Assembly (NCBI GenBank): GCA_014381825.1
Contig: JACNKX010000038.1
Location: 310,001-374,000 of the forward strand
Length of the DNA stretch: 64,000 bases
Reading direction: 5' to 3'
Source of the DNA: Planctomycetota bacterium
Lineage (GTDB): Bacteria > Planctomycetota > Planctomycetia > Pirellulales > Pirellulaceae
The translations under genes and the position numbers were made by a program. The notes beneath the pieces were generated by a model. It made no database searches, was not told the DNA's origin, and saw only the letters and a program-made list of their open reading frames with translations. Below are positions 30,389-33,593 of this stretch, in pieces (position 1 is the stretch's first letter; every line of letters begins with the position of its first letter).

Positions 30389-30817
30389 CGGTAGGGACTC
30401 GCACTGATCGATCCGACCCGCCGCCGACGCACTTTCGAGAACCAACGAACCTGCGTGTGTTTTAACAACTCGTGGCGAGTGACATGGGACGAGAAACGAT
30501 CCATCTTCGACAGAGGCAAGTTTCCGTGAATATGCCTGGGGAACTGCTGGAGTTAAACTCTAGTAGGTCATGATTCTTGATCTCGTGATGACTCGACGGC
30601 GGGAGTTGCTGGCTCTTAACTTCTGGTTGAACCTAGTGGTCTGCCGCTGCTTAGTGTTCGGTTGCGAGCATTCTGTGACCGGGGCTTCCAGCCGCAGTTT
30701 TACAGACGCTGCGGCTGGAAGCCTCAGCCACGTCCAACCCCAAGATTGAGCGGCGACCGACTACTAGGTTGCGACACCACATTCAAACGGCATACGCCGT
30801 ATCTCAAGCCGCTCGCG
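30389..30817. other. Intergenic region between convergent genes, with hairpin repeat
   Basis: There are 429 bases without a convincing gene. They contain the 15-bp hairpin at 30683-30723. A plus-strand frame at 30662-30844 is only this repeat read through and was not accepted. Confidence 0.5.
30683..30723. repeat. Intergenic hairpin repeat (15-bp stem)
   Basis: GGCTTCCAGCCGCAG (30683-30697) pairs perfectly with CTGCGGCTGGAAGCC (30709-30723), with an 11-base loop. There is no T-tract. It lies between two converging genes. Confidence 0.85.
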
Positions 30818-33367
30818 TTACCTCAATCCGGAATTCGCCAGTGACTCGCTTACGATAGACGACGCGCCCGCTTTCTCGAAGGCTTCCAAGAATGGCTTCG
30901 GTGACGTGTAGACTCCGTCCAAAAGAATCGGTTTGTTGGGGCTGCCGGCAGGGAAGATGGCATAGAACGGAATCGTTCCTGATTGATGGCCAAGTTGCTC
31001 CATCAAACGATCAATTTCCGGCGCTGGTTGAGTCTTGTCGGCTCGCAGTGCGATGATCCCGTGTTTTTCGATAAATGCTTTGGTATCGTTCGTGTTCAAG
31101 GCGACCGCCTCATTCGATTTGCAAGTCAGTCACCAGTCGGCTGTAAAATCGACGAAGACGGTTTTCTTCTCGGACGTCAGTTGTTCGAGTAACTCCTGAG
31201 TATACGGCTTCCAAGCAAGTTCATTACTGTCGGATCGCGGAACGCGATCTTCAAGATCTCCGATAGTCTCGGTTCGCACTCCGATTTCCTTATCGACGGC
31301 TCTTTGAAATCGAGCCGTCATAATCGATGCAAGATTCGTAGATCGAATCGGTTCAATCGGCGCTCCATAAGCAAACAATCCGGTGACGGTGGCAAACGCA
31401 GTCGCCGCTACCCAAGCAGCCCCTTTTTTGTCGAGCGATTCCGTAAGTGGCACACGACCGATCCACCAAAATGCCGCCCAGAGTCCCATCATGAAAGCGA
31501 CTGTTGGAACGACGTACGGGATCGGGATGAATGTTAACAGGAAGATGACAGTGCCTAACAGCACGAAGCCCATCATGTGCTTGAACGTATCCATCCACGC
31601 ACCGGGCTTCGGCAGAAACGACACCAGTTCGGGAAACGCTCCGATTAACAAATAGGGGCTCGCCATACCAAGTCCCACACAGCCAAAACCTGCGTAGGCG
31701 ATTACCGGCGGTTGCACGACCGCCCACGTCAATGCCGATCCGAGAAGCGGACCACTGCATGGTGTCGCCAACACGGTCGTAAGAACTCCCTTGAAGAATG
31801 CACCGGACGCACCTTCTTTCGTTGCGAGACCACCGACCTTTCCCGATCCCACGAAACCTGGAATTGGAATCTCCCATACACCGACAAAACTCAACGCGAA
31901 CGCGAAGACTACCGACGTAAGGATCACGTTGAACGTCACACTACTGAACTGCTCGCCCCAACTGAGCCCCATGAATACCGAGAGCGTCGCGAGGATCAAG
32001 AAGACGGACATCAGCCCAAGGCTGTACCAGACGTTTAACATGAAGCTTCGTGCACGATTATCTCCCGCTTGTTGAACAAACGCCATCACTTTAAGTCCAA
32101 TAACTGGCAACACGCACGGCATGAAATTCAAAATGAAGCCGGCCACGAACGCCATCAATAATACGACCGGTGTTGATAGTTCGGCCGTTGTGCTCTGCGT
32201 GTCGAGGTTGTCCAAGTCGAGCGTTGTATCTGTCGCAGCGATCTGATCGCTGGGCGGCGTTACTTCCTTTGTTTGCCGATTTGCTAGATCGGCAGCATCT
32301 TTGTACTCGGACGTCGTGAAACTAAGTAGCGATGTACCCACGACCGCGTCATCACCGACTTCTATCGTCCCTTGAAAGGACGCGCCAGTCGGAAGATCGC
32401 AACTGGCAAGCGTGCATGTCTGATATCCGATCAATCCGGCTATCGTGTGCGTACCAGGAGTCGCGTCGGCGGGCACCTTGATTTCGACGGACCAAGTGAC
32501 CGGCTCCTCGTGGAAGTAGACTAGCGGTTCCTCCTCTAGGCCCAATTCATGTTCAATCGGTTTCACTGACGCAGTGAACGTAGACGCCTTCCACTCGTTT
32601 GGTTCGCTGACGGCGATCAGCGTTGGTTTCGAGATGAGCTTTGGATCTTGCGGCGCGTAAGCATAAATGTGCCACGTCGATTCGGGATCAGCGCTCAGCG
32701 ATATCGTGAAGGAACTACCGGGCTGAACGGTCGCTGGTGTAATCGTTCCACGTAGCGTGACATGAGCCGATTTCGTCCGAAACTCGGTAACGATGGGCGA
32801 CTCTTTGTAATACCCCGCGAACTTGGCGACGACAGGCTTGTTGGCGATAGGAATGCAAGAGCCTTTGTCCTGACAGACCTGGCCGTTGAATTTCACTTGC
32901 AGCTCGGTTGCTGCCGGGTCGATCCCATTGGCGAGCTGAATCGGTGCTGTCCAGACAACTACACCGTCATGCTCTTCGACCGGAACATCGAAGAACTCGT
33001 ACTTCTTCACGTGAGGTGCGGCATCTGGTTTGAATTCGCCGGTGATTGCCGCTTGGTCTGCCGACGCAAGCTTGATCACACTGCGTTGTGGGCCGCCCGC
33101 CAGCTGGGTCACTGAGTAAACGTGCCATGTGGGTTCCATCGTCGCCGTTACAGAGAGGCGACCATTTCGCGTACCCTCGACAACTTGAAACTCCGCGGAA
33201 AACGTCGCTTTATCGCCGCCCAAAGGTCCGCCCAAACCTGGAATTCCCAATTGGTCGATAATATTCAACGGCGGCGAGGCCGGCGTGTCCTGTCCAACCG
33301 TGATTGATTCGGCGAGCGTTATAAGGCAAGCGACGAAGAAGGCGGCAGCCGTGGGTAGCCGATTCAT
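30818..33367 (-). CDS. DsbD-type thiol:disulfide transporter, candidate selenoprotein (UxxC)
   Basis: If the in-frame TGA at 31132-31130 is read as selenocysteine, the product has 849 residues. Domains: signal peptide (1-25); two periplasmic alpha-type domains with cysteine pairs Cys165/Cys171 (QVCQDKGSC) and Cys318/Cys323 (YQTCTLASC); a membrane domain (~400-670, about eight helices) with the paired cysteines Cys418 (NFMPCVLPVIG) and Cys537 (LATPCSGPLLG); and a C-terminal thioredoxin domain (~715-849). There the motif is FTADW-U746-LTC749-KSNE, followed by cis-proline TIPFYAIF. The TGA falls exactly on the first active-site cysteine. The family passes electrons from cytoplasmic thioredoxin to periplasmic proteins such as the TlpA-like one here. 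A pseudogene or sequencing error is the alternative. The ATG at 33367 opens the signal peptide. Confidence 0.85.
31097..31112 (-). promoter_or_regulatory. Candidate bacterial SECIS hairpin
   Basis: In the mRNA, UGAGGC-GGUC-GCCUUG forms a 6-bp stem (two G-U pairs) with a GGUC apical loop placed 24-27 nt after the UGA. Bacterial SECIS elements lie just downstream of the UGA and carry a G in a small apical loop; E. coli fdhF also has GGUC. It is short, so support is moderate. Confidence 0.5.
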
Positions 33368-33593
33368 GCTGTTAATACCTTTGGAGAGAGTCTGGCGGGG
33401 CATCGGTTGATTCTATGGAATGTTGAAAACCCGGGTCAACGGACGATCTGGAAGATTCTCGTACGAGGATTCTCACTCTGCTAAAGGAAAACTCACTCGT
33501 TCGCGGAGCAAATCATCCTGTACACCATTATCGACGTAGTACGCAGCTCATTCGGTGAGGTGGAGTACAAACACGCTCCCTGTTACAGCCTCG

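Follow-up and report, generated by a model that had tools for sequence, protein, structure and literature searches.

DsbD is the hub that supplies reducing power outside the membrane. In the Escherichia coli protein, electrons reach the alpha domain from the membrane domain by way of the gamma domain, in which Cys461 is the attacking residue (PMC3961690). The pKa of this cysteine is 10.6, raised by Asp455 and Glu468; it is the highest reported for the N-terminal cysteine of a CXXC motif in the thioredoxin family and has been explained as protection against side reactions (PMC3961690). Selenocysteine (Sec) machinery and selenoproteins have been described in planctomycetes (PMC4807772). Here, we describe a planctomycete dsbD-like gene with an in-frame TGA at the codon for this very cysteine. 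Very probably, judging from sequence comparison, it encodes a DsbD with Sec as the N-terminal, attacking residue of a UxxC pair in the gamma domain, and we predict its product to be a selenoprotein.

The gene occupies positions 30818..33367 on the minus strand of the window, the whole stretch of 64,000 nt analysed here. With TGA read as selenocysteine it codes for 849 residues, and the Pfam models DsbD_N, DsbD_TM, and Thioredoxin_7 match above their curated cut-offs. A preliminary description of this DNA had reported a single TGA separating two frames of the same phase, had placed it at the first cysteine of a redox CxxC followed by 103 codons for a thioredoxin domain, and had proposed a candidate selenoprotein DsbD. 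The observation is confirmed, and the proposal has good support. Scanning the 849 codons of the minus-strand frame from 33367 to 30818 identified the TGA at 31132-31130 (codon 746; feature 31130..31132, minus strand) as the sole interruption before the terminal TAA at 30820-30818, which ends the 103 codons lying 3' of it. The text at the site, FVDFTADW-TGA-LTCKSNEAVALN, reads ...FVDFTADW-U-LTCKSNEAVAL... if the TGA is U. The TGA aligns with the catalytic cysteine of homologues and, by sequence comparison (E about 1e-4), with the first cysteine of ADWCISCK in the DsbD C-terminal domain structures 6dnu and 6dnl. Cys749 (31121..31123, minus strand), the second residue of the UxxC pair, is invariant in 21 aligned Sec-DsbDs, which were picked from 47 for alignment and domain counts. 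A second in-frame ATG at 33403, 12 codons upstream of 33367, may instead be the true start. When TGA is treated as a stop, as in the program-made list of open reading frames, the gene is cut before the thioredoxin domain, and the enzyme can thus look broken in annotations made by gene callers of this kind. We reject a reassignment of the genetic code, as TGA terminates 3 of 12 checked open reading frames in the window. Seven other UxxC or CxxU frames with open flanks in the window are chance-like in appearance, and no tRNA genes were found in its 64,000 nt.

The domains of the predicted protein follow the order DsbD_N, DsbD_TM, and C-terminal thioredoxin. The alpha domain (DsbD_N, N-terminal periplasmic; residues 61-176; 32840..33187, minus strand; 43.2 bits, cut-off 25) carries Cys165 and Cys171, the transmembrane beta domain (DsbD_TM; residues 401-612; 31532..32167, minus strand; 76.3 bits, cut-off 27.1) carries Cys418 and Cys537, and the gamma domain (C-terminal thioredoxin; residues 719-833; 30869..31213, minus strand), identified by Pfam and by matches to 6dnu/6dnl, 4ip1, 2fwe, and 1uc7, carries the UxxC active site. 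A redox pair is therefore found in each of the three domains, and in the 21-row alignment C418, C537, U746, and C749 are invariant while C165 and C171 are nearly so. Pfam recognises DsbD_TM and Thioredoxin_7 in all 21 Sec-DsbDs and DsbD_N in 18 of them; the best thioredoxin model of the window protein is PF13899. The NCBIfam DsbD model NF001419 scores 129.9 bits against a cut-off of 330, so the window protein is a diverged DsbD or DsbD-like protein that falls outside this subfamily model. Sec746 corresponds to E. coli Cys461, and alignment places Asp740 (31148..31150, minus strand), six residues before Sec, and Glu753 (31109..31111, minus strand), seven residues after it, at the equivalents of Asp455 and Glu468. 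Asp is present at -6 in 71 of 71 Sec and Cys genes, a position fixed by the construction of both search motifs, and Glu at +7 in 45 of 47 Sec genes versus 15 of 24 Cys genes; the GAG codon of Glu753 also falls within the stem of a hairpin discussed below, and either role could account for its conservation.

A structure model of the whole protein (mean pLDDT 77) has a pTM of 0.44, which leaves the domain arrangement unsure. It predicts a pair of beta domains at the N-terminus, then a helical membrane part, and finally a thioredoxin fold at the C-terminus, in which the first active-site helix would begin directly after U746. The modelled C-terminal part resembles the solved DsbD gamma domains 4ip1, 2fwe, and 1uc7 with TM-scores of 0.70-0.77 by target. 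The putative second beta domain spans residues 203-337 (32357..32761, minus strand). Among solved structures, the one closest in fold to the model is the ScsB N-terminal domain (6c29), with a TM-score of only 0.39 by target and no selenium in its title; many further matches are unspecific beta-sandwich proteins.

Could the TGA be a nonsense mutation or a sequencing error, followed by a decaying remnant of a gene? One point mutation or error would be enough to interrupt an open gene with a lone TGA. However, the codon recurs. Matches to the window protein were detected in 369 of 396 genomes of the order and, among the matches listed, six genomes besides that of the window have one in-frame TGA, at the same codon in 6/6, which argues that the TGA of the window is not due to chance. 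The variants at the site in the listed order genomes are W-U-LTCK, W-U-ATCK, S-U-MTCK, and G-U-LICK. Also among the matches listed are one row with a TAA, a stop in the N-terminal domain, and one with a TAG, the natural end; the cysteine is intact in both. We scanned 84,980 named genomes with a pattern requiring D-F-T-A before and C-K after the TGA and thus blind to Sec-DsbDs with other flanks (e.g. the DFYADW type), and obtained 85 stretches. By frame inspection these comprise 46 DsbD genes with TGA, three other thioredoxin-fold candidates, and 36 chance-like cases; L126 and L141, whose examined open frames lack the membrane motif, were counted as DsbD by their tails, and L126 also by its position beside L119 in the tree described below. 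With the window gene included, 47 distinct Sec-DsbD genes from many assemblies have TGA at this codon. By title, which places 45 of the 46, they belong to planctomycetes, with four from verrucomicrobia (L070, L090, L097, L120) and two from undescribed bacteria (L065, L080). Homologues with cysteine at the site (n = 24) use TGC in 21 cases and TGT in three. The residue before U in the 47 Sec genes is Trp in 36, Ser in 4, Gly in 4, and Thr, Tyr, and Asn in one each; the residue before Cys is Trp in 24 of 24 Cys genes, though the motif allowed W, S, or G. Among viral contigs, the three pattern matches are all short chance-like frames.

The three remaining thioredoxin-fold stretches are observations in their own right. 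In Mariniblastus (L115, 3697-3729, minus strand), a short thioredoxin has an in-frame TGA (W-U-PPCKK) with 96 open codons before and 74 after it, and is another candidate Sec thioredoxin by its sequence. The stretches L102 (3610-3642, plus strand) and L106 (1491-1523, plus strand), from Phycisphaerae/Phycisphaerales, look like thioredoxin folds with U-x-x-CK, and their open frames show no membrane motif of DsbD; these are candidate selenoproteins of another kind.

Neutral evolution of the codons after the TGA, which the preliminary description had raised as a means of refutation, is not what we see. Between the window gene and L084, the tail has a dN of 0.20 and a dS of 1.86, near saturation, at 72% identity, and dN/dS is 0.07-0.42 in the 20 closest pairs of Sec genes whose codon identity falls within 0.3-0.97. 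These ratios indicate that the domain downstream of the TGA is under purifying selection. As L084 is an independent assembly of a close relative and has TGA at the same codon, as do many others, sequencing error is not credible. Moreover, the hairpin described below is specific to TGA forms, and only one match to the window DsbD was found in its own genome (G000), a search that could miss CcdA-type proteins; there is thus no recognised copy to replace a broken gene. Taken together, the chance that the TGA is a mutation or an error is close to nil.

A tree of the 47 Sec and 24 Cys genes was computed with the Sec/Cys column masked, using a quick search and one support measure. The window gene and L084 group together (SH-aLRT 100). 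By parsimony, the tree requires at least five Sec/Cys changes. Four of these cannot be avoided given the well-supported branches, so switching has occurred repeatedly. The tree contains some long branches, and the placement of L058/L091 and of the verrucomicrobial genes, which are possibly misplaced, is uncertain.

Does the message carry a signal for Sec insertion? A hairpin with the stem UGAGGC/GCCUUG and the loop GGUC lies within the coding sequence at 31097..31112 (minus strand), 20-35 nt from the U of the UGA. In its GU-containing loop and its distance from the UGA it is similar to SECIS elements of bacteria, for example the one in E. coli fdhF. Taken alone, the window hairpin is modest: its z-score is -1.40, 26 of 300 shuffles were equally good, and four other folding windows around it, set against dinucleotide shuffles, had z-scores of -1.91, -0.05, 0.02, and -0.62. 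The signal lies in the family, where a compact hairpin with a GU loop occurs 20 to about 36 nt after the TGA in Sec genes. We folded the 27 nt at +15..+41 of 46 Sec and 24 Cys genes and compared them with synonymous-codon shuffles. Sec genes have a mean of -8.4 kcal/mol and a mean z of -2.52, with z < -1 in 46 of 46, versus -2.6 kcal/mol and -0.21 in Cys genes, with z < -1 in 4 of 24 (rank-sum p = 2e-10). A wider 54-nt fold shows a weaker difference (mean z -1.03 for Sec, +0.08 for Cys, p = 1.4e-5). As the genes are related and not independent, both p values overstate the number of events; moreover, sampling differs, the Cys set coming from order genomes and the Sec set mostly from the pattern scan. 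Removed before these statistics were seven copies from the same genomes (L022, L089, L101, L107, L109, L111, L140), the non-DsbD thioredoxins L106 and L115, L102 by a length filter, and, for folding, L139 (an N in its row); the motif of the Cys set, ...C..CK, left out at least L025, L038, and L039, which end in CQ or CH, and the duplicates L053 and L056.

Two main registers account for 30 and 10 of the 46 Sec genes. In these, 178 of 180 and 64 of 70 stem cells, respectively, form pairs, and GU stands at a fixed place in the loop in 40 of 40. The remaining six Sec genes form hairpins in other registers, while only 1 and 4 of the 24 Cys genes reach five pairs under the two registers. Stem pairs are exchanged among Sec genes, with G-C, A-T, and C-G at one position. 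Does the structure then simply reflect conservation of the NEAVAL peptide, without being a SECIS element? The heptapeptide NEAVALN does lie over the hairpin in 19 of the 47 Sec genes. Nevertheless, shuffles that keep the peptide abolish the structure, which ranks in the best 5% in 40 of 46 Sec genes versus 2 of 24 Cys genes, and genes encoding TERFALN, NENSVFS, or NEAVVYS instead also have a hairpin about as far downstream, built from other stem pairs. Furthermore, genome G393 contains sister copies (L052; L027/L053) with 80% nucleotide identity before the site, in which the Sec copy has the hairpin and the Cys copy folds at 0.0 kcal/mol. We therefore consider a mere by-product of the peptide very improbable. 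As a feature of the family, structure and GU loop are present in Sec forms and absent from Cys forms, and the sequences point to a bacterial SECIS-like element, specific to TGA forms. The sister copies of G393 might also reflect switching by selenium supply.

No Rfam family exceeded its threshold in the window; the hairpin was not recognised, and the gene region had only a sub-threshold match to mir-744. Downstream of the gene, a perfect 15-base inverted repeat, GGCTTCCAGCCGCAG / CTGCGGCTGGAAGCC (window 30683-30723), is overlapped only by a sub-threshold Rfam match and may be a terminator or an interspersed repeat.

A genome that decodes UGA as Sec needs the corresponding machinery, and the search suggested in the preliminary description located all of it. 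The genome of the window (9.69 Mb, 99.9% complete) encodes tRNA-Sec (67 bits, cut-off 47; ARAGORN agrees, with anticodon tca), SelA (470 bits), SelB (352 bits against a cut-off of 242), whose match lies some 300 bases from that of SelA, and SelD (345 bits), which has an in-frame TGA of its own within SCAGUAGKL. In 14 control genomes, the tRNA-Sec model exceeded its cut-off in five and the SelA, SelB, and SelD models in two, so the tRNA match by itself is weaker evidence and the protein matches weigh more. A second SelD-like match (G000:C45:42491-43399) lies on the contig of the window in a 741-codon frame without TGA and is perhaps an Ndh-SelD fusion, as described in marine bacteria (PMC2398784).

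SelB also co-occurs with the TGA. It exceeds its cut-off in 39 of the 46 Sec-DsbD genomes and in 103 of the 396 order genomes. By identical match coordinates, compared by eye and perhaps incompletely, 16 of the 46 were recognised in the order sample; together with the window they make 17, of which 15 have SelB, and their removal leaves SelB in 88 of 379 order genomes. Fisher's test gives an odds ratio of 18.4 (p = 3e-16) for 39/46 versus 88/379, and p = 6e-8 inside the order sample only (15/17 versus 88/379). Two of the seven Sec-DsbD assemblies without SelB over the cut-off are, by identical match coordinates, G057 and G074, which are 70% and 65% complete.

Might the UGA nonetheless be read in another way, as Cys or Trp through a modified tRNA or leaky termination, or serve to regulate a short and a long form? 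The product of decoding is predicted from sequence alone, and the interchange of Sec and Cys forms in the tree (minimum five changes) implies that cysteine works at this site. However, the genome holds tRNA-Sec with SelA, SelB, and SelD, the co-occurrence with SelB is strong, other open reading frames in the window use TGA as an ordinary stop, and the hairpin sits where bacterial SECIS elements usually do. We regard such alternative decoding as very unlikely and retain the reading of the gene as a Sec-containing DsbD.

What, then, would this protein do? For the insertion of Sec, the flow of electrons, and the partners, we infer the following course. SelB with Sec-tRNA would insert Sec at the UGA, guided by the mRNA hairpin 20-35 nt downstream, as the machinery and the hairpin suggest. 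A cytoplasmic donor, presumably thioredoxin, would reduce Cys418/Cys537 of the membrane domain, from which electrons would pass to Sec746/Cys749 of the gamma domain. The N-terminal pair Cys165/Cys171 would receive them next and hand them on to extracytoplasmic partners. We base this route on the E. coli DsbD pathway and on the finding that the six redox positions are all conserved.

Sec is far more acidic than cysteine, with a pKa of about 5, which makes it an unexpected choice at this residue. Our joint reading of these results is a tentative one, for which the odds are slightly short of even: the export of reductant across the membrane in a broad planctomycete/verrucomicrobial group may be selenium-dependent, with the single recognised DsbD of this genome a selenoprotein; Sec may occupy exactly the position of a cysteine whose pKa is exceptionally high in E. 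coli DsbD (10.6), with retention of the acidic residues responsible for that value, implying a different protection chemistry; and some four or five Sec/Cys switches may have occurred in the genes compared. Sec at the equivalent of Cys461 makes the protection idea directly testable, and the switches, including sister copies within one genome, provide a natural experiment on the retention of selenium.

How far has such a protein been anticipated? The preliminary description had left undecided whether a Sec-containing DsbD was on record, and the answer is divided. The conserved domain cd02953 is one that we take to be DsbD-gamma. In a table of the marine GOS survey by Zhang and Gladyshev (2008), 22 sequences with UxxC stand under 'Trx-like 2 (Thiol disulfide interchange protein)', cd02953 (PMC2398784), so the domain was not wholly unforeseen; the precedent goes without the name DsbD, however, and neither that term nor transmembrane occurs in the main text of PMC2398784. 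The likeness to our gene is a UxxC in the presumed DsbD-gamma domain; the difference is that Trx-like 2 is a table row in that main text, set beside the window gene by description only, and its sequences could be fragmentary members of this family. A 'Thiol:disulfide interchange protein' with UxxC and PF13098 (WP_011366075.1) is recorded in PMC13188914 and PMC9312934, and this selenoprotein is named for Geobacter and Syntrophus in PMC1794560. It is likewise a UxxC selenoprotein of thioredoxin fold, and PF13098 also matches 3 of the 21 Sec-DsbDs, whereas PF13899 is the best thioredoxin model for ours; the comparison is again by description only.

A 2026 review (PMC13188914) counts 119 selenoprotein families or subfamilies and, in its available text, mentions DsbD once, for the UxxxxU rhodanese form TsoB. 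A 2021 survey (PMC9402790) mentions a fusion of a Prx-like U/CxxC protein with 'DsbC (Pfam11412)', and PF11412 is the accession of DsbD_N in our domain search. The term DsbD was not found in the available text of PMC12013277, PMC1088965, PMC5029168, PMC1794560, or PMC9312934. In the literature searched, with subscription journals and supplements outside its scope, no full-length DsbD containing Sec was recognised, and we consider the Sec-DsbD family at most partly anticipated in these texts. TsoB (NF045694), a rhodanese/DsbD fusion-like selenoprotein, shares the DsbD membrane region with residues 373-614 of the window protein, but it has two Sec residues in UxxxxU and a rhodanese form, while the window protein has a single U in UxxC and scores 122.1 bits against the NF045694 cut-off of 805. 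E. coli DsbD itself shares the architecture of the window protein, with DsbD_N, DsbD_TM, and a C-terminal thioredoxin, a Cys (or U/C) pair in each, Asp at -6, and Glu at +7. From the E. coli protein it differs in a score below the NCBIfam DsbD cut-off, in a predicted second N-terminal beta domain, and in the TGA that takes the place of the first gamma cysteine.
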